Shown one piece after another: positions 16,368 through 23,956 of a stretch of 64,000 nt of DNA. The notes below the pieces were generated by a model. It was not told the origin of the DNA. It searched no databases and was given only the letters and a program-made list of their open reading frames with translations. Numbering within the stretch: position 1 is the first letter of the stretch; the number at the start of each line of letters is the position of its first letter. The DNA is from Polynucleobacter sp. 30F-ANTBAC (GTDB taxonomy: Bacteria > Pseudomonadota > Gammaproteobacteria > Burkholderiales > Burkholderiaceae), in assembly GCF_018882385.1 (NCBI RefSeq), contig NZ_JACVON010000002.1, positions 496,001-560,000 of the forward strand, read 5' to 3'. The position numbers were made by a program, and so were the translations under genes.

Positions 16368-17543
16368 CTATCTGGCATCACGTGGCATTTTTAAGCTTCT
16401 TTCAGCAATAATATTTAATTGAATTTCATTGCTGCCAGCATAAATGGTGTCTGATTTACTGTTTAACCAAATTTGTTCTAAATTAATGGCCTGATGATTA
16501 GGTTGCTCATGACTACCTAATTCTAGGCCAATGACGTTAATGGCAAGTTTTCCTAAATCTCTTCTCCAGTTTGACCATAAGTATTTAGAAATACTGGTCG
16601 CTCTTTCGTCAGAGTTTGGGTCTGAAACCCTTAAGGCATGACTTCTAAGAGTTTCTAAACCAAGAGCCAAAGAAGCAATTTTTTGTCTAAATATAGGATC
16701 GTTGGCCATTCCATTATGTTTGGCAAATTCAATTAATTGACCAAGTTCTCTTTTGAATTGTGCTTGCTGACCTAATGTTGAAACGCCACGCTCGTAGGCT
16801 AACAATGCCATGGCTACTTTCCAGCCATCTCCCGGAGAGCCAAGGTGAAGACTACCTTCCGTTCTAGCATTATCAAAAAACACTTCATTAAACTCAGAGC
16901 CCCCAGTAATTTGTTTGATGGGCCTAATTTCAATTCCGGGTTGATCCAATGGGACGAGTAAGAGTGTTAATCCTTTATGACGCTCAGAATTGGCTTCAGT
17001 TCGAGCTAAAACAAAAATCCAGTCGGCTTCGTGAGCCCAGGAGGTCCAAATCTTTTGGCCATTGATGACCCAGTCACCATTGTTAGGGTCTATTTCGCCT
17101 TTAGTTCTAATGGCTGCCAAATCAGATCCAGCACCAGGCTCTGAGTATCCTTGAGCCCAATAGGCTGTCCCATTTAAAACGCCTGGCAGAAAACGCTCTT
17201 GCTGAAGAGCTGTACCGTACTCCATGAGTGTTGGAGCTAACAGGTGCTCGCCAATATGACCAATTCTTCCCGGACCTCCGCAGCGGACATATTCCTCATG
17301 AAAAATAATTTCATGAGATAAAGGAAGCTCTCTTCCGCCAAACTCTTTTTTCCAACCTAGGCCTATCCATTTTCCTAAAGCCAGCTGTTGTTCCCATTTT
17401 TTCGCGAGATCGGCATCAAAGCCTGGATAGCCAAAACCAGCAGCATTTCTTAACTGTTCATATTCATCACAAAGATGAGATGCCATCCAAGATCTTACTT
17501 CTTCACGGAATAATTTTTCAGATGATGTTTCTTCTAGATTCAT
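16368..17543 (-). CDS. Acyl-CoA dehydrogenase, predicted catalytic subunit of a pair
   Basis: 391 residues from the ATG at 17543, which overlaps the upstream stop as ATGA; a longer frame reaching 17594 would run into the neighbour. The substrate/FAD motif GYSEPGAGSD is at 132-141, and ING-x-KIWTSWA at 160-170. The YEG glutamate of the medium-chain type is Ala in IYAGSNEIQ, but Glu251 in LLAYERG lies where isovaleryl-CoA dehydrogenase has its base. The neighbour lacks both positions. The pattern matches the alpha2beta2 dehydrogenases (FadE/ChsE pairs) used for steroid side chains in actinobacteria. Confidence 0.85.
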   Translation of the reverse strand: MNLEETSSEKLFREEVRSWMASHLCDEYEQLRNAAGFGYPGFDADLAKKWEQQLALGKWIGLGWKKEFGGRELPLSHEIIFHEEYVRCGGPGRIGHIGEHLLAPTLMEYGTALQQERFLPGVLNGTAYWAQGYSEPGAGSDLAAIRTKGEIDPNNGDWVINGQKIWTSWAHEADWIFVLARTEANSERHKGLTLLLVPLDQPGIEIRPIKQITGGSEFNEVFFDNARTEGSLHLGSPGDGWKVAMALLAYERGVSTLGQQAQFKRELGQLIEFAKHNGMANDPIFRQKIASLALGLETLRSHALRVSDPNSDERATSISKYLWSNWRRDLGKLAINVIGLELGSHEQPNHQAINLEQIWLNSKSDTIYAGSNEIQLNIIAERSLKMPRDAR

Positions 17544-18667
17544 AATGAAATTTCCTGATCCAGTAATAAAGCAGCTACTTTTTCTTGCCACCAAGAGATA
17601 GGCAATAAACGTTGAGAGTTATATTGGGCTCTTTTGAGCAATCGATGCAGGTCAAATTCCCAGGTGAACCCCATGCCGCCATGTAATTGAATCGATTCTT
17701 CGGTGCAATATATGGCCGCCTTAGTAGCTTCTACAAATGCTTGTGCCCCATAAAATAGGAGGGTGTCGTTAGATGGCTTTGTATCGGCCATGCACGCAGC
17801 TCCGTAAACAGCAGATCTTGAGCTTTCAAGTTCGACTGACATTTGAGCGCAACGGTGTTTCACGGCTTGGAAGCCCGAAATAGTTTTACCAAACTGCGAT
17901 CTCTCTCCAACATACTTTAGAGTTAAATCAAGTGCTTTTTGGGCAATGCCTACCTGTTCAGCAGCTAAACCAATACTGGCGAAACAAAGATCGCGTTGCA
18001 AGTAATCTGGGGCATTCATCATTGCAAGATGCGCTGTCTCAGGTAGATTGGCATTTTCAGCAAAAAGACAACCATTACGTTGTGTCAAATCCAGAGTCTT
18101 CTGTTCTACAGAATTAAAACCTGTGGATGAAGCATCTATTAAAAATAAATGCTCCTGACCTTGTTCATCTTTTGCTGTTAATAGCACTTTGTCAGCGCTA
18201 GGTAGAGATCCAATGTGAGACCACTGCCCGTTAAGTAACCAGCCGGTTGCACTTTTTTTAACTTGATTTTTACTACTTTTATTTAAATGAGGAAGAGCAA
18301 AGCTAACAATTGCTTTACCTTCTGAAAGATCCGATAGGGTCTCTGCCGAACTCTTTTTGTCTGAATGCGATAGAAGTACTATCGTTGATAAAACTGAACT
18401 ATCAAAGAATGGGGAGCAAGTTAAATACTGCCCCAGCTTTTCCTGAAGTAGGCACATTTCGACATAGCCCATACCCATGCCGCCAATATCATCGGGTAGT
18501 AATAAATTACACCAGCCAAGCTCATTCATTTGATCCCATAAATCTTGATCAAATCCGTCGCTATTTTCACTAATATTTCGAACGGCTTTCATATCACTTT
18601 GCTTTTCTAAGAAGCTAGTGGCGCTATCGATAATGAGTAGTTGTTCGCTCGTTGGTGTTAGATTCAT
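17540..18667 (-). CDS. Acyl-CoA dehydrogenase, predicted non-catalytic partner subunit
   Basis: 375 residues with the family N-terminal helical domain (PTSEQLLIIDSATSFLEK) and C-terminal helices (SIQLHGGMGFTWEFDLHRLLKRAQ). Neither known glutamate position is filled: the region after the last motif reads NSQRLLPISW with no YEG, and the helix-G position reads FASIGLAAEQ. The middle FAD/substrate motif SxPSGGSD is also absent, replaced by FALPHLNKSS. It is therefore likely a structural or substrate-shaping subunit of a heteromer with the product of the overlapping downstream gene. First gene of the minus-strand group; the 268-base region upstream probably holds its promoter. Confidence 0.82.
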   Translation of the reverse strand: MNLTPTSEQLLIIDSATSFLEKQSDMKAVRNISENSDGFDQDLWDQMNELGWCNLLLPDDIGGMGMGYVEMCLLQEKLGQYLTCSPFFDSSVLSTIVLLSHSDKKSSAETLSDLSEGKAIVSFALPHLNKSSKNQVKKSATGWLLNGQWSHIGSLPSADKVLLTAKDEQGQEHLFLIDASSTGFNSVEQKTLDLTQRNGCLFAENANLPETAHLAMMNAPDYLQRDLCFASIGLAAEQVGIAQKALDLTLKYVGERSQFGKTISGFQAVKHRCAQMSVELESSRSAVYGAACMADTKPSNDTLLFYGAQAFVEATKAAIYCTEESIQLHGGMGFTWEFDLHRLLKRAQYNSQRLLPISWWQEKVAALLLDQEISL

Positions 18668-18935
18668 TATGGGTGGATTGTTGATAAATTTATAGTGATT
18701 ATTTTTAGTTGCAAGATGATTATGGCGCCTTTAATAATTATCTTAATCTTAAGAGTAAATTGGGCATCGTCTAGTCAGACTACAAGGGCCTGCTGGCACC
18801 TTAAATAGCTCGGTCAACTACTCTTTTTTATTTAAATTATCAATTCAAACTGGGCTAAAGCCACCTTACCCTGATTTGATCAAATTGGAGATGTGAACTT
18901 TAGGGGTAATTCTTTAAAAGGCGTAAACTTAGATT

Positions 18936-20555
18936 ATGTCAAATCAACCAGAAATACCATCTAAGCCTAGCCCTCCTAAAAGTGCTCAATCAGGGCAAAA
19001 GTCAGATTTATCCCTCAGATATTTGCGACTTTTTGAAACGGCCCAGGATGGCATTCTGATTCTTGATTTTGCAACAGGGGTCATCGAAGACGCTAACCCC
19101 TTCATAACGGACTTTCTTGGGTACTCTAAAGAGGAATTGATCGGCAAACAGTTATGGGAGATTGGTCCTTTTGTTGATAAAGAGGCGGCCAAGTTAGCAT
19201 TCAAAGAGTTGCATGATAAGGGTTATGTTCGCTATGAGGACTTACCGCTAAAACATAAGAATGGCAAAATTTTGGCTGTTGAGTTTGTGAGCAATGCCTA
19301 TCATGTTAACGGTGATACGGTCATTCAATGCAACATCAGAGATATTTCAGACCGCAGAAAGTCCGAGGAAGAGCTCAGGGTTTCTAAAGCACTATTGGAG
19401 AAACAGAATTGGGCGGTATTGGCTTATGCCCATGCTGCTATTGCGCTATCAAGAGCGGACGATGAGGCAACCCTTATTAAGGATGTTTGCTCTGCTATTG
19501 TGAAAGAAGCTCCTTATGTGATGGCTTGGGTGGGGATGGCGGAGCATGATGAGCAAATGACTGTGCGCGTTGCTGGTATGGAAGGTTCTGCTAAGGCCTA
19601 TGCCGATGGAATTCAAGTTAGTTGGTCTGATAAAACCCTAACTGGCAAAGGGCCTGTGGGGCAATGCATTCGAACTGGCGTGGCAACAATTATTTTGGAT
19701 ACCGAAGAAGATCCACGGTTTATTCCTTGGCGCGACCGAGCAAAAACCTATGGCATCAGGTGTGTAGTAGCAATACCCATACATGACGAGACTAAAACAA
19801 TTGGTGCGTTGGCTGTCTATTCAAAAATTGCTAACGCATTCAGTGATAGTGAAATTCAGTTATTTGAAAATTTAGCAGATGAAGTTGGTTATGGCTTGCG
19901 AGCGATTAAGCATCGACAAGACTTAGCTCTTGAAATGAAAGAGCGTCAGGCCGCAGAGCATCAACTAACTTTAGCCTTAGAGTCAACGATTGCAGCGATG
20001 TCAAAAACAATGGAATGGCGAGATCCCTATACTGCTGGCCACCAAAAAAGAGTGGCCGAGATTGCTGTATTAATTGGAGAAAAGATGGGGCTCAGTCAGG
20101 ATCGCTTGCAAGGTCTTCACATGGCTGGCATGGTTCACGATATCGGCAAAGTGGCCATCCCTTCGGAAATTTTAACCAAGCCAACGGCCTTAAGTGATTT
20201 AGAAAGAAAAATGATGCAGGGGCATGTGGAATCTGGATACCAAATATTAAAAGATGTCCCCTTTCATTGGCCGATTGCCGATATGGTGAGGCAGCATCAT
20301 GAACGCATTGATGGATCTGGATACCCATTAGGACTCAAAGGAGATCAAATCCTTTTGGAAGCGAAGATCTTGGCTGTTGCCGATACGATTGAAGCAATGG
20401 CATCCCATAGACCCTACCGACCTGCCAGAAGCTTGGAGGTGACTTTTGATGAGGTCAAACGACTCTCTGGTACTTGTTTGGATGAAGCTGTTGTTCAAGT
20501 GGCTTTGGATTTATTTGGTGATCAGGTTTTAATTAAAAAACTTCTGGAGCATTAA
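18936..20555 (+). CDS. PAS-GAF-HD-GYP protein (probable c-di-GMP phosphodiesterase)
   Basis: Soluble protein of 539 residues. A PAS domain spans about 25-140 (FETAQDGILILDFATGVIEDANPF), a GAF domain about 160-315 (CSAIVKEAPYVMAWVGMAEHD), and the HD-GYP domain about 345-535. Metal ligands His401-Asp402 (HDIGK) and the GYP motif at 462-464 (HHERIDGSGYP) are intact, so hydrolysis of c-di-GMP is expected, with PAS and GAF sensing an unknown signal. It is four bases upstream of a diguanylate cyclase and leads the exopolysaccharide locus, so the two enzymes may set opposing c-di-GMP control over the glycosyltransferase. No promoter was identified with confidence. Confidence 0.88.
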   Translation: MSNQPEIPSKPSPPKSAQSGQKSDLSLRYLRLFETAQDGILILDFATGVIEDANPFITDFLGYSKEELIGKQLWEIGPFVDKEAAKLAFKELHDKGYVRYEDLPLKHKNGKILAVEFVSNAYHVNGDTVIQCNIRDISDRRKSEEELRVSKALLEKQNWAVLAYAHAAIALSRADDEATLIKDVCSAIVKEAPYVMAWVGMAEHDEQMTVRVAGMEGSAKAYADGIQVSWSDKTLTGKGPVGQCIRTGVATIILDTEEDPRFIPWRDRAKTYGIRCVVAIPIHDETKTIGALAVYSKIANAFSDSEIQLFENLADEVGYGLRAIKHRQDLALEMKERQAAEHQLTLALESTIAAMSKTMEWRDPYTAGHQKRVAEIAVLIGEKMGLSQDRLQGLHMAGMVHDIGKVAIPSEILTKPTALSDLERKMMQGHVESGYQILKDVPFHWPIADMVRQHHERIDGSGYPLGLKGDQILLEAKILAVADTIEAMASHRPYRPARSLEVTFDEVKRLSGTCLDEAVVQVALDLFGDQVLIKKLLEH

Positions 20556-20558
20556 GCA

Positions 20559-21386
20559 TTGAAGTACTTTGTTATTAGTCTTTATATTGCTGCCATTTGT
20601 ATTCAGATATACAGCATCATTTCATCTTTCTGGATACTTAAAAAATTCAAAGCCTTTGCTTTTGGCATCATGTTTATGCCTCTTGGTCTACTAGTTATCC
20701 TTGGTGATAAGTTGTATTACTTGTTGGATTGCTGTATCCGAAATAATTTCAGCCTTACAAATGCTTCTTTTTACTTATCCATATCAGTTTGTCTGTGGCT
20801 TGGCGTAGTTGGATTGCAGCGACTATTTATCACCTTAGATGAACAAAGAGAAAAGTTGGAAAAAATTTCCAAACACGATCACTTAACTGGCGCCTTAAGT
20901 CGCCTAGAGATCGAGTCCCAAATTATTCAAGAAATTAAAAAATCAGATCGTACTAAACACCCCATTGCGTTTGTGATGTTAGATATTGATCACTTTAAGC
21001 GTGTTAACGATACTTTTGGCCACCCAGTGGGTGATCAGGTTCTTAAAAAGCTATCCCTCTATTGCATGTCTCAGTTACGATCGATTGATGCATTTGGCCG
21101 TATAGGTGGTGAAGAGTTTCTCATTATGCTTCCAGAGACTAATCAGAAAGATGCTTTGGTGGTGGCTGAGCGGATTCGTCAGGGTGTTTCAGATTTGGTG
21201 TGTGCCCAAGTGCAAGATCAAAATATAACAATTCAAATCAGTCTAGGCATTGCGATTTATCAGCCAGGTGGAGAGCGTGAAGGTCTGGCTCATGAAATCA
21301 TGAAAAAGTACTCCAGACGTGCGGATCTTGCTATGTATCAGGCAAAACAAGCAGGACGTAATCAAACAAAATGTTGGCACGAGTAA
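20559..21386 (+). CDS. Membrane diguanylate cyclase (GGDEF)
   Basis: 275 residues starting at TTG (20559), with GGAG at 20545-20548. The N-terminal 95 residues hold about three membrane helices (YFVISLYIAAICIQIYSI; FGIMFMPLGLLVILG; FYLSISVCLWLGVVGL). The GGDEF domain follows: DHLTGALSR, MLDIDHFKRVND, and active site GGEEF at 183-187. The inhibitory I-site RSID at 174-177 lies five residues upstream, so product inhibition is predicted. Makes c-di-GMP from two GTP. Its position between an HD-GYP protein and a PgaC-like synthase argues for local control of polysaccharide synthesis. Confidence 0.9.
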   Translation: MKYFVISLYIAAICIQIYSIISSFWILKKFKAFAFGIMFMPLGLLVILGDKLYYLLDCCIRNNFSLTNASFYLSISVCLWLGVVGLQRLFITLDEQREKLEKISKHDHLTGALSRLEIESQIIQEIKKSDRTKHPIAFVMLDIDHFKRVNDTFGHPVGDQVLKKLSLYCMSQLRSIDAFGRIGGEEFLIMLPETNQKDALVVAERIRQGVSDLVCAQVQDQNITIQISLGIAIYQPGGEREGLAHEIMKKYSRRADLAMYQAKQAGRNQTKCWHE

Positions 21387-21408
21387 TTTATAAATTAATG
21401 GGGTAGCT

Positions 21409-22710
21409 ATGTACGTTAGTGTTAGGTCTAAATTTTCATCTGCGTTATTCATTGCGGTGATGTGGTGTTCTTTTTCTATTTGGGCAAGTCGGTATTGGTT
21501 TGATGATCTTTCATTATTGGTTGGTCAACCCATTGCGGCTTTCTTAATTGCATTCATTGCCATAGTTCCCGGATTTATGAATGCATTTATGTTCTCGAGC
21601 CTACTTTTTGATAAGCGCCCATTGCGAAAGAAATTGGATACATATCCAGATCTATCTCTTTTAATAGCCTGTTACAACGAAGAAAAATATATTCTAGAAA
21701 CTCTCGATAGTATTGAGAGGCAAGCCTACCCCGGCAATCTTGAAGTCATTGTGATTGATGATGGCTCCCGCGATCAAACCAGTGCTATTGTTAAAGCATT
21801 CAGTACGGATAGAAACTGGGTTAAGTTAATTCAGTTAAATGCCAACCAAGGTAAGGCAGCAGCTTTAAACATTGGCTTAGCTAAAGCCACGCACAGCAAA
21901 ATTGTGACGATTGATGCAGATTCTTTCTTGTTTAAGGATGCCTTAATCAGGATTGTAGAGCGTTATGCGAGTGACCCTGCTCATACACGCGCTGTTGCTG
22001 GTACAACTTTGGTTCGCAATTCACGAGACAACTGGTTAACGCAATCTCAGGAGTGGGACTATTTCCAGGGAATTGCTACAGTTAAGCGCGTTCAATCACT
22101 CAATCAGGGCACCTTGGTTGCTCAGGGTTGCTTCTCTATTTATGACAAAGATGCATTAAATGAAATTGGTGGCTGGCCACGAACGGTTGGCGAGGATATT
22201 GTCCTTACTTGGGCATTATTGGAAAAGGGTTATCGAGTTGGTTATTGTGAAGACGCTGTTATTTTTACAATTGTTCCTAATACTTTAATGGGCCTTGTTC
22301 GTCAGCGTCAGAGGTGGGCAAGGGGCATGATTGAAGCGTTTAAGCATCATCCTAAAATTTTGCTAAAACCGCAGCTATCGACTTTCTTTATTTGGTGGGA
22401 TCTATTTTTCCCATTCATGGATATTGCATTTACATTTGGCTTCTTGCCAGGTTTGGTGCTCGCATTAGTGGGGCACTATTGGATAGTGGGACCGATGACC
22501 TTAAGTTTATTTCCAATTGCACTGCTGATTAATTGGTTGATGTTCCGAACTGAAAGTAAGATGTTCATGGAGCAAGGTTTGCATGTCAGAAGAAATATTA
22601 TTGGGTTTCTGATCTATCTACTCCCTTACAACATTATTTTGCAGCCAGCTGCAGTGCTGGGGTATTTTGTTGAATTTTTAGGATTTAAAAAAGTGTGGGG
22701 TACAAAATGA
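21409..22710 (+). CDS. Family 2 glycosyltransferase, PgaC-like polysaccharide synthase
   Basis: Inner-membrane processive glycosyltransferase of 433 residues. Two N-terminal membrane helices are followed by the GT-A domain: ACYNEEKYILETL, IDDGSRDQT, TIDADS, QGCFSIYDKDAL, GEDIVLTWALL and the processivity motif QRQRW in RQRQRWARG. Three or so C-terminal helices follow (DIAFTFGFLPGLVLAL; LFPIALLINWLMF; IIGFLIYLLPYNIIL). Family members polymerise N-acetylglucosamine (PgaC/IcaA) and are activated by c-di-GMP, directly or through a PgaD-type partner. The stop overlaps the next start as ATGA. The sugar polymerised cannot be told from the sequence. Confidence 0.87.
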   Translation: MYVSVRSKFSSALFIAVMWCSFSIWASRYWFDDLSLLVGQPIAAFLIAFIAIVPGFMNAFMFSSLLFDKRPLRKKLDTYPDLSLLIACYNEEKYILETLDSIERQAYPGNLEVIVIDDGSRDQTSAIVKAFSTDRNWVKLIQLNANQGKAAALNIGLAKATHSKIVTIDADSFLFKDALIRIVERYASDPAHTRAVAGTTLVRNSRDNWLTQSQEWDYFQGIATVKRVQSLNQGTLVAQGCFSIYDKDALNEIGGWPRTVGEDIVLTWALLEKGYRVGYCEDAVIFTIVPNTLMGLVRQRQRWARGMIEAFKHHPKILLKPQLSTFFIWWDLFFPFMDIAFTFGFLPGLVLALVGHYWIVGPMTLSLFPIALLINWLMFRTESKMFMEQGLHVRRNIIGFLIYLLPYNIILQPAAVLGYFVEFLGFKKVWGTK

Positions 22711-23654
22711 TCATCATTAAAAACTCACCTCAGTTTCTGTTGGGGTTGCTGTTATCTCTGAGCTCTCTGTCACTTCTGGCAGAAGAAGCAAAAGAACCAT
22801 GGGGTTTGATGGCGCCAACTATCTTTGCTTCTCAAGATAGCGATCATTTTAGTGTCACTAAAGTGGGAACAGGCCTTCTTCCTTTTTATAAGAGTGGTCA
22901 AGAGTATTTGGGTATTCAAGCAAGCTCTAATCGCTATTCCAATCCTGAGTGGGCTAAGAGTGGTGGACAAGTTAGCTTGGTTCAGCGATCGATTAACTCG
23001 GCATCTGGATTGGGAAGTGTGGCAAGTCTTGGAGTCAGTAGCTTGTATGGCAGGGAGTTATTGATTGCTGATATGACTTATTCTGCGCCAATCAATCAAA
23101 CCCTCTCTTATGAGGCATTTTTATTTAGAGATTGGGTTGAAACTAGAAACTCCCTAACCAATGGTATTAGTCATAATTATTATGGCGCCAGCTTGGAAAA
23201 ACGCTTTTCTCCGGATTGGACTTTAATTGGTTTAGTGGCTCAGCAAAAGTTTTCGGATGACAATATTCGCAATCACCTTCGAGCAAAGGTGATTTATGAC
23301 GTGTTACCAGAGCAAGGAGTTAATCTACAGCTGCGTCATCGTCAATACAGAAATAGCCATGAGGTGACCGAGAACTATTTCAATCCAAATGAATACGATG
23401 AAAATATGGTGGTCATGGGTTGGCGAAGAAAATTACAAGGTTGGCAGTTATCGGGTTTAGCTGGTTTGGGTCGTCAAAAAATTAACGATGATCCTTATAC
23501 GACCACAAAGTTATTGGAAGTGGAGGCGGTTAGCCCTATCTTTAATAGGATTTTCTTAAGATCTAAAGTAGGTTATTCCGATAGTGCAGGATTCGGTGGT
23601 CCTGATTACAGTTATAGGTATTTCCAAGCAGATCTTATTTTCCAATTTAATTAA
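22707..23654 (+). CDS. Outer-membrane beta-barrel protein (YaiO-like)
   Basis: 315 residues from the ATG at 22707, which overlaps the glycosyltransferase stop; an earlier in-frame GTG has no support. A signal peptide (FLLGLLLSLSSLSLLA) is followed by alternating amphipathic strands through the whole length (LGIQASSNRYS, LQLRHRQYR, WQLSGLAGLGRQK) and a C-terminal end YFQADLIFQFN, close to the barrel-assembly signal ending in an aromatic. It is probably a polymer export pore or assembly partner for the PgaC-like synthase. YaiO assignment is tentative. Confidence 0.65.
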   Translation: MIIIKNSPQFLLGLLLSLSSLSLLAEEAKEPWGLMAPTIFASQDSDHFSVTKVGTGLLPFYKSGQEYLGIQASSNRYSNPEWAKSGGQVSLVQRSINSASGLGSVASLGVSSLYGRELLIADMTYSAPINQTLSYEAFLFRDWVETRNSLTNGISHNYYGASLEKRFSPDWTLIGLVAQQKFSDDNIRNHLRAKVIYDVLPEQGVNLQLRHRQYRNSHEVTENYFNPNEYDENMVVMGWRRKLQGWQLSGLAGLGRQKINDDPYTTTKLLEVEAVSPIFNRIFLRSKVGYSDSAGFGGPDYSYRYFQADLIFQFN

Positions 23655-23956
23655 TGAAAAAGCCCTTATTAACAACCATTTGTTTGGTTATCTACACATT
23701 TTTTGAGATCCTTGTTGCTATCCTAGATGTGCTTGTCTTGGCTGCAGCGTTTTGTCTTCCCGTTATTGCTGGGTTGCTTTTAAAGCCTTTATGGGGTGAC
23801 CTTATTGCCATGATTGGTGTTGTCATGGGCGTTGCCTTATTTGGGATTGCCTTTGTTTACAGAAAAAGGTTTCAGGCTTGCTTGCAGGTCAAGGCTAGAG
23901 GCGAAGCGGAGTTATTGATTGAGCGAGTTCGCTCAAAAAAGTATTTTCAAGATTAG
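23654..23956 (+). CDS. Small membrane protein of the polysaccharide locus
   Basis: 100 residues with two membrane helices (about 6-38 and 45-68) and a basic cytoplasmic tail (YRKRFQACLQVKARGEAELLIERVRSKKYFQD). Its ATG shares one base with the barrel gene stop, so it belongs to the same operon. Size and topology recall PgaD, the c-di-GMP-binding partner of PgaC, but the sequence gives no clear match. Arg residues in the tail could contact c-di-GMP; this is a guess from context only. Confidence 0.6.
   Translation: MKKPLLTTICLVIYTFFEILVAILDVLVLAAAFCLPVIAGLLLKPLWGDLIAMIGVVMGVALFGIAFVYRKRFQACLQVKARGEAELLIERVRSKKYFQD

Follow-up and report, generated by a model that had tools for sequence, protein, structure and literature searches.

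A five-gene locus of Polynucleobacter sp. 30F-ANTBAC, found in the 64,000-nucleotide stretch of DNA analysed here (the window), probably encodes a compact exopolysaccharide synthase-exporter resembling that of poly-N-acetylglucosamine (PGA, or PNAG) and equipped with its own dedicated pair of enzymes for switching cyclic di-GMP (c-di-GMP) on and off. We assign this reading a probability of about two thirds. Five consecutive open reading frames (ORFs) were found on the + strand at 18936-23956, as the initial annotation had placed them, and they encode an HD-GYP protein, a GGDEF protein, a PgaC-like synthase, an outer-membrane barrel and a 100-residue protein (Table 1). Three lines of evidence carry the reading: the two c-di-GMP enzymes are the only proteins of their kind detected in the genome, the first four genes (the core genes) recur together in related genomes, and the synthase and the barrel each resemble, with different degrees of certainty, their counterparts in pga systems. 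The locus would thus be a natural one-signal, one-output circuit in a small-genome bacterium, open to direct testing and probably making and exporting a sugar polymer.

Table 1. Coordinates and family matches of the five genes in the window and of the barrel-deacetylase fusions in two related loci
Feature	Position	Strand	Family match
PAS-GAF-HD-GYP predicted c-di-GMP phosphodiesterase, 539 residues	18936..20555	+	PF13487 E 4.2e-37; GAF_2 E 1.2e-17; PAS_9 E 4.4e-09
Predicted diguanylate cyclase, hydrophobic N-terminal part, 275 residues, TTG start	20559..21386	+	PF00990 E 3.2e-41
Processive-type GT2 polysaccharide synthase, PgaC-like, 433 residues	21409..22710	+	PF00535 E 1.3e-33
TPR-less outer-membrane barrel, probable PgaA-barrel type, 319 residues counted from GTG	22695..23654	+	TIGR03939 E 0.0021, C-terminal part
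Hydrophobic protein, 100 residues, two membrane helices by eye	23654..23956	+	No family above cut-off
Barrel-deacetylase fusion, 702 residues, one open frame	L116:6669-8774	-	Polysacc_deac_1 23.4 bits, cut-off 23.1
Barrel-deacetylase fusion, 706 residues, one open frame	L117:10194-12311	+	Polysacc_deac_1 23.3 bits, cut-off 23.1

The c-di-GMP enzymes of the locus

HD-GYP phosphodiesterases are recognised by an HD motif together with HHExxDGxGYP, and both were intact in the first protein (HDIGK at 20136-20150, HHERIDGSGYP at 20295-20327). I-site diguanylate cyclases combine GG(D/E)EF with an RxxD five residues upstream; both were read intact in the GGDEF protein, with the I-site, which the initial annotation had noted, as RSID at 21078-21089 and the A-site GGEEF at 21105-21119 (RSID-AFGRI-GGEEF). 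In the genome that contains the window (1.96 Mb, 99.99% complete), the cyclase was the sole match to PF00990 and the HD-GYP protein the sole match to PF13487, and neither PilZ nor MshEN gave a match. The local second-messenger control suggested for the locus is thus stronger than had been proposed. As this pair constitutes the whole c-di-GMP metabolism detectable in the genome, the polymer is most likely the output of the messenger, and perhaps its only one. Where a single cyclase and a single hydrolase are all that can be detected, the usual overlap among many c-di-GMP enzymes is avoided. A single cyclase is also found in Borrelia; Acidithiobacillus caldus and Acidithiobacillus thiooxidans, considered as further precedents, were discarded, the available portions of the sources giving fifteen GGDEF proteins for the former and 39 c-di-GMP-related ORFs for the latter.

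A working EAL phosphodiesterase elsewhere in the genome was also considered and rejected: the one candidate (287 residues, L145:1010-1873, - strand) scored 25.3-25.4 bits against a cut-off of 31.3, and EAL and DDFG motifs were absent by eye. This degenerate EAL-like protein adjoins an apparent LuxR-type response regulator and could be a non-enzymatic regulator. Comparable matches under the cut-off occurred in many genomes of the genus.

The survey of the genus covered 151 sampled genomes, 31 of which carry the synthase (counted at E below 1e-100). All 31 have a GGDEF protein, compared with 73 of the 120 others (Fisher p 2e-6), and all 31 have an HD-GYP protein, compared with 56 of the 120 (Fisher p 3e-9), in tests that treat genomes as independent and are uncorrected for relatedness. 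The GGDEF protein is single and located in the module in 15 of the 31, and the HD-GYP protein is likewise single in 14 of those 15; among these 14 genomes PilZ was matched in one (G129, where the module is decayed) and MshEN in none. Against a general rule, 16 of the 31 module-bearing genomes hold 2 to 6 GGDEF proteins, so that a private c-di-GMP pair is a trait of some lineages and not of all.

Conservation of the module

Thirty loci were inspected (the window, L036-L044 and L101-L120). These counts include two decayed copies (L120 and L113) and leave out two short contigs (L086, 3.0 kb; L017, 3.3 kb). The barrel gene adjoins the synthase gene in all 30, the barrel being fused to another domain in two loci, split in one and broken in one. 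Within the fetched stretches the cyclase was present in 28 of the 30 loci, the HD-GYP protein in 28 and all four core genes in 27; the four are therefore grouped more than chance would have it. The order of the genes is scrambled, with at least seven arrangements among the inspected loci. A search for the five-gene order, which the initial annotation had put forward as a check, recovered it in three loci only (the window, L036 and L037), a fourth (L038) having the first four genes in the window order: what is conserved is the four-gene content instead. Distance correlations computed over 22 loci, 10 names having been excluded by hand, were 0.94 for synthase and barrel, 0.68 for synthase and cyclase and 0.34 for synthase and HD-GYP protein, indicating a tight export pair and looser regulators.

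The enzymatic motifs were largely maintained. GG(D/E)EF was present in 28 of 29 cyclase rows and RxxD in 27 (window and L017 included), and among 28 HD-GYP rows HDxGK and the GYP motif were each present in 27. Four loci speak against a strict association of the export genes with this pair: L041 has no intact local cyclase match, its local GGDEF gene containing a stop; L103 has a GGDEF-EAL protein in place of the module cyclase and no HD-GYP protein on the fetched stretch; L104 matches neither enzyme; and the L115 cyclase lacks GG(D/E)EF. Beyond the genus, the barrel profile was searched in 399 genomes sampled from the order and found eight, two of them in the genus. All four core genes recur at L137 and L140, which belong to two further families of the order, and L138 contains cyclase, synthase and barrel.

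Two copies show signs of decay. At L120 (G129:C1:968000-987000) the synthase gene has three stops and barrel and cyclase are truncated; no further GGDEF or HD-GYP match occurs in that genome. At L113 the synthase gene has one stop and the rest looks whole. In five compact loci (L106:11013-11495, L107, L109, L110 and L112) an Ala-rich ORF of 161-165 residues follows the barrel gene, and a similar-looking ORF lies beside a pga locus (L045:16253-16744); the two tested had no Pfam match. It is possibly an accessory common to compact and pga loci.

Relation to pga loci of sister species

Pga-looking loci, with a glycosyltransferase (GT) 28-33% identical to the synthase, were found in six of the 151 genomes (G035, G070, G076, G117, G146 and G152), none of them among the 31 synthase carriers; around a seventh, weak GT match (G099, L125) there was nothing pga-like. 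Four of these loci were inspected (L045, L122, L123 and L124), the Pga families being tested in L045. There, all four Pga proteins were recognised, three of them above the NCBIfam cut-offs; PgaA reached 322.2 bits, under its cut-off of 366.65, with 79.7 bits on PF21197 and additional TPR matches. Beside three of the four, the exception being L123, lie a cyclase of 271/272 residues and a GAF-HD-GYP protein.

The kinship of these cyclases was examined with a 69-row GGDEF-domain tree, built by a quick method with support from the Shimodaira-Hasegawa-like approximate likelihood ratio test (SH-aLRT) only. The compact set was taken without L041, L104, L120 and L086 and with L017, L137, L138 and L140 added, and the other cyclases came mostly from the 30 best-scoring loci, which are not a random sample. 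The three pga-linked rows and 31 of the 32 compact-locus rows formed one group of 34 (support 87, or 97 once the long-branched row L054 was added), the compact row outside being L103, and 33 of the 34 other GGDEF rows fell apart from this group. Within it, the pga-linked cyclases nest with four compact-locus cyclases in a subgroup of seven (support 98). These data indicate that the two synthases have drawn on a common cyclase group. In one of the six pga-type genomes, a 7.1 kb contig (L121, G117:C130) carries two tandem copies of a gene pair of PgaC and PgaD size.

The outer-membrane barrel and deacetylation

Several weak lines suggest that the barrel is probably an export pore of the PgaA type that lacks the TPR arm. 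The window barrel had no Pfam match at E 0.1, and its match to the PgaA model of NCBIfam was weak and confined to the C-terminal part. Of 22 homologues scanned with an E limit of 1, 18 matched PF21197 (PgaA_barrel), the best at E 6.8e-6. The barrel alignment comprised 22 of the 30 barrels, with near-duplicates omitted along with copies that were split, fused, broken or began at a different start. In another family of the order (L142), a homologous barrel (E 9.3e-12) forms the end of a TPR protein, which is the layout of PgaA (TPR_19 E 8.7e-17; PgaA_barrel 26.9 bits, cut-off 27). A structural model of the window barrel had 16 strands, the number in the PgaA barrel, and a Foldseek search with it returned 831 matches in the PDB, 39 of them at E up to 0.001. 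The top two were polysaccharide export pores, PelBC (9h80) followed by PgaA (4y25), TM 0.64/0.69, with BcsC in 8th and AlgE in 13th place. As the model derives from a three-row alignment and has a predicted local distance difference test (pLDDT) score of 44, this fold search was taken as supportive only.

Other observations weigh against the assignment, besides this low model confidence. The window barrel itself has no PF21197 match, and the best value among its homologues probably falls under the curated cut-off (E 3.3e-6 corresponding to 26.9 of 27 bits). Ranks 3-7 of the Foldseek search are Occ porins and BamA, which are not exporters. Comparison of the barrel profile with five PgaA-type barrels gave a probability of 18.9%, and searching that profile by sequence against solved structures gave 0 matches. 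Finally, the L137 barrel weakly matches another porin family, BBP2_2, and the L140 barrel matches none.

Two relatives, L116 and L117, carry beside the same synthase a deacetylase-like domain fused to the N-terminal side of the barrel (Table 1). By eye, this domain (PF01522) has the DDG motif, but the later of the two His residues that HxxxH normally holds is hard to make out; the N-terminal part of the L116 fusion scored 20.9 bits against HfsH, far below the cut-off of 400. These fusions might be one-protein modify-and-export devices, and they point to a polymer of the N-acetylglucosamine (GlcNAc) type.

No match to PgaB, PgaD or TPR was found among the five proteins of the operon, in agreement with the initial annotation, which had noted neither a PgaB deacetylase nor a PgaA TPR porin. 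In the whole genome the PgaA model (TIGR03939, cut-off 366.65) had two matches, both far below threshold: the barrel of the operon scored 15.9 bits and a match at another place 19.7 bits. With PgaB absent from the locus, export is probably independent of a linked deacetylase. The further step, from a deacetylase-free locus to a non-deacetylated polymer, is less certain: none of the five proteins of the operon matches PF01522, but the genome encodes one unlinked NodB-type PF01522 protein (257 residues, on another contig, G000:C3) and two relatives have the fusions. The system could accordingly be read as a PNAG system deacetylated in trans by this protein, the product being ordinary, partly deacetylated PNAG. 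Its signal-peptide-like start (by eye) would suit that role, and the L116 and L117 fusions indicate that deacetylation can accompany this pore. However, PF01522 proteins occur in 148 of the 151 genomes of the genus against 31 for the synthase, and the gene adjoins sterol-desaturase-like and beta-propeller-like ORFs (by eye), from which we consider the protein probably housekeeping. Moreover, when 31 loci were searched with five single-sequence phmmer seeds, a deacetylase turned up in two, L116 and L117; the sensitivity of this search was limited, since the seeds other than L116 missed L116. We regard deacetylation in trans as unlikely.

The synthase and its product

PgaC_IcaA (TIGR03937) was the top NCBIfam model for the synthase, ahead by 65 bits, with E 7.6e-56 and 189.8 bits; the cut-off is 422.3, and PgaC from the pga locus L045 of a sister species reaches 568. 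Judged by sequence, the protein is PgaC-like and is not a PgaC equivalog. Its nearest named relatives are from Polynucleobacter metagenome-assembled genomes (81% and 77% identical). A profile from 24 aligned rows (23 of the 30 synthases, chosen as for the barrels, and L017) matched 49 solved structures, with chondroitin, hyaluronan and cellulose synthases among the best.

The missed equivalog cut-off counts against a PGA-like product, as does the fact that sugar specificity is not readable from sequence. Together with these solved relatives and the modest identity to the GTs of the pga-type loci, it would also fit a polymer that is not GlcNAc-based, a different GT2 product (hyaluronan-, chitin- or glucan-like) leaving through a pore of its own. 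On the other side stand the lead of PgaC_IcaA over the other NCBIfam models, a pore that is probably of the PgaA type, a cyclase group common to pga loci and the deacetylase-like domain fused to the barrel in two relatives. A non-GlcNAc polymer thus appears improbable, to about the same degree as deacetylation in trans. Cellulose, whose Bcs synthase carries a PilZ domain and is accompanied by BcsB and BcsC, is unlikely in particular: PilZ was matched neither on the synthase nor anywhere else in the genome, and the locus encodes no TPR pore, though no genome-wide search was made for BcsB or BcsC.

The same synthase (65% identical) was encountered, with a partial barrel and a cyclase, on the 3.3 kb contig L017 (JAFMEV010000133.1), which is labelled Chitinophagaceae. 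This contig is probably mis-binned, because the cyclase it carries falls with the L137 cyclase in the tree.

The 100-residue protein

The last protein of the operon matched neither PgaD model (PF13994, TIGR03940), although the same models detect the PgaD of the pga locus L045 (TIGR03940 E 4.4e-15, PF13994 E 1.6e-14), and was thus rejected as PgaD. Homologues were found in 2 of the 29 other inspected loci, and the protein appears to be a lineage-specific accessory. The suggestion that it might be the c-di-GMP receptor was weakened by both results. It is small and hydrophobic and closes the operon, as PgaD does (by eye), and its start overlaps the barrel stop codon; that it is nevertheless a functional analogue of PgaD and the receptor is very unlikely given its presence in three loci of 30 and the silence of models that do detect PgaD.

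Proposed mechanism

In the PGA-like reading that we favour, the GGDEF protein, whose motifs are intact, would make c-di-GMP, which would switch on the adjacent PgaC-like GT2. As expected from its family, this enzyme would polymerise an activated sugar, most likely uridine diphosphate (UDP)-GlcNAc, threading the chain across the inner membrane, and the chain would leave through the barrel, acting as a PgaA-type pore without a TPR arm. The PAS-GAF-HD-GYP protein, its motifs likewise intact, would sense a cue, remove c-di-GMP and stop synthesis. With PgaD absent from the locus, gating would have to operate via the synthase, via the cyclase I-site or via some receptor that went unrecognised. As PgaD is unmatched and the 100-residue protein occurs in few loci, the likeliest candidate receptors are the first two, the I-site having a parallel in the Listeria receptor described below.

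A stricter version, which we advance tentatively and consider somewhat less probable than its negation, is that of a private one-wire circuit. The genome would keep c-di-GMP solely to gate one synthase, without PilZ or PgaD, through binding by the synthase or through the product-bound I-site of the cyclase, and export would proceed through a pore with neither a TPR arm nor a linked deacetylase. A PgaC-like synthase kept with its own cyclase but without PgaD, in a genome where no PilZ is detected, would reduce gating to its minimal element. Similarly, the barrel-deacetylase fusions and the cyclase group common to pga and compact loci provide natural experiments on the essential parts of PGA export.

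Comparison with known systems

The locus resembles pgaABCD, whose product is beta-1,6-GlcNAc, in its PgaC-kind GT2 synthase, in its probably PgaA-type export barrel and in its cyclase, which is of the group found at three of the four pga loci inspected in sister species. It differs in lacking PgaB, PgaD and the TPR domain of the pore, in missing the PgaC equivalog cut-off and in holding a cyclase and an HD-GYP gene inside the operon itself. Listeria is Gram-positive, and its Pss system hence has no outer-membrane pore. The report on Listeria pssA-E describes a synthase about 30% identical to PNAG synthases and, in the same operon, a GGDEF I-site protein, PssE, which is degenerate and serves as the receptor for the polymer; in its authors' view the product is more likely neither cellulose nor PNAG (PMC4125290). 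In contrast to PssE, the GGDEF motif of the window cyclase is intact. In E. coli, PgaC and PgaD jointly bind c-di-GMP, which stabilises their complex (PMC8461298).

Forms of pga without pgaB and pgaD have been described. In environmental bacteria an organisation with a rearranged pgaC was reported in which pgaB and pgaD were not detected beside it (PMC7112194); the likeness to the present locus lies in this absence near pgaC, and the accessible text, compared by description, mentions no linked cyclase/HD-GYP pair. The xag operons are another such system outside pga (PMC3609779, PMC4643136). In Xanthomonas, xagABCD is a putative glycosyltransferase operon, distinct from pga, that contributes to biofilm and is up-regulated on deletion of the HD-GYP protein RpfG (PMC3609779); within this operon the passages available name neither a cyclase nor an HD-GYP gene, the systems again being compared by description and not by sequence. 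Among the titles and abstract beginnings covered, a partial sample of the literature, none described this module together with a cyclase/HD-GYP pair of its own, nor a fusion of deacetylase and barrel. Pga forms lacking pgaB and pgaD and the xag operons were thus already known, and what is new is an operon that supplies the only GGDEF and HD-GYP matches of its genome.

Operon structure and neighbouring genes

The initial annotation had described the genes as overlapping, which is correct for the last two junctions. The barrel gene probably starts at ATG 22707 and not at GTG 22695, a signal peptide being seen by eye; provided that this ATG is the start, synthase and barrel genes overlap by four bases (ATGA), and the barrel gene overlaps the last gene by one (TAATG). 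The first two junctions, read from the sequence, are instead short gaps, of 3 bases between the HD-GYP and GGDEF genes and of 22 bases between the GGDEF and synthase genes. Because the upstream gene is divergent and a phasin gene follows downstream, the five genes are likely co-transcribed. Single transcription is something we infer; a scan for promoters and terminators gave fewer matches than shuffled sequences and was uninformative on this point. Between 17500 and 25000 of the window, 0 Rfam matches were obtained for RNA families, the c-di-GMP riboswitch included, at E up to 0.5. The divergent upstream neighbour looks by eye like an acyl-CoA dehydrogenase ORF (17540-18935 region), with an intergenic stretch of 268 bases. 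The phasin gene (PF09361 26.2 bits, cut-off 24.9) starts 62 bases after the operon.

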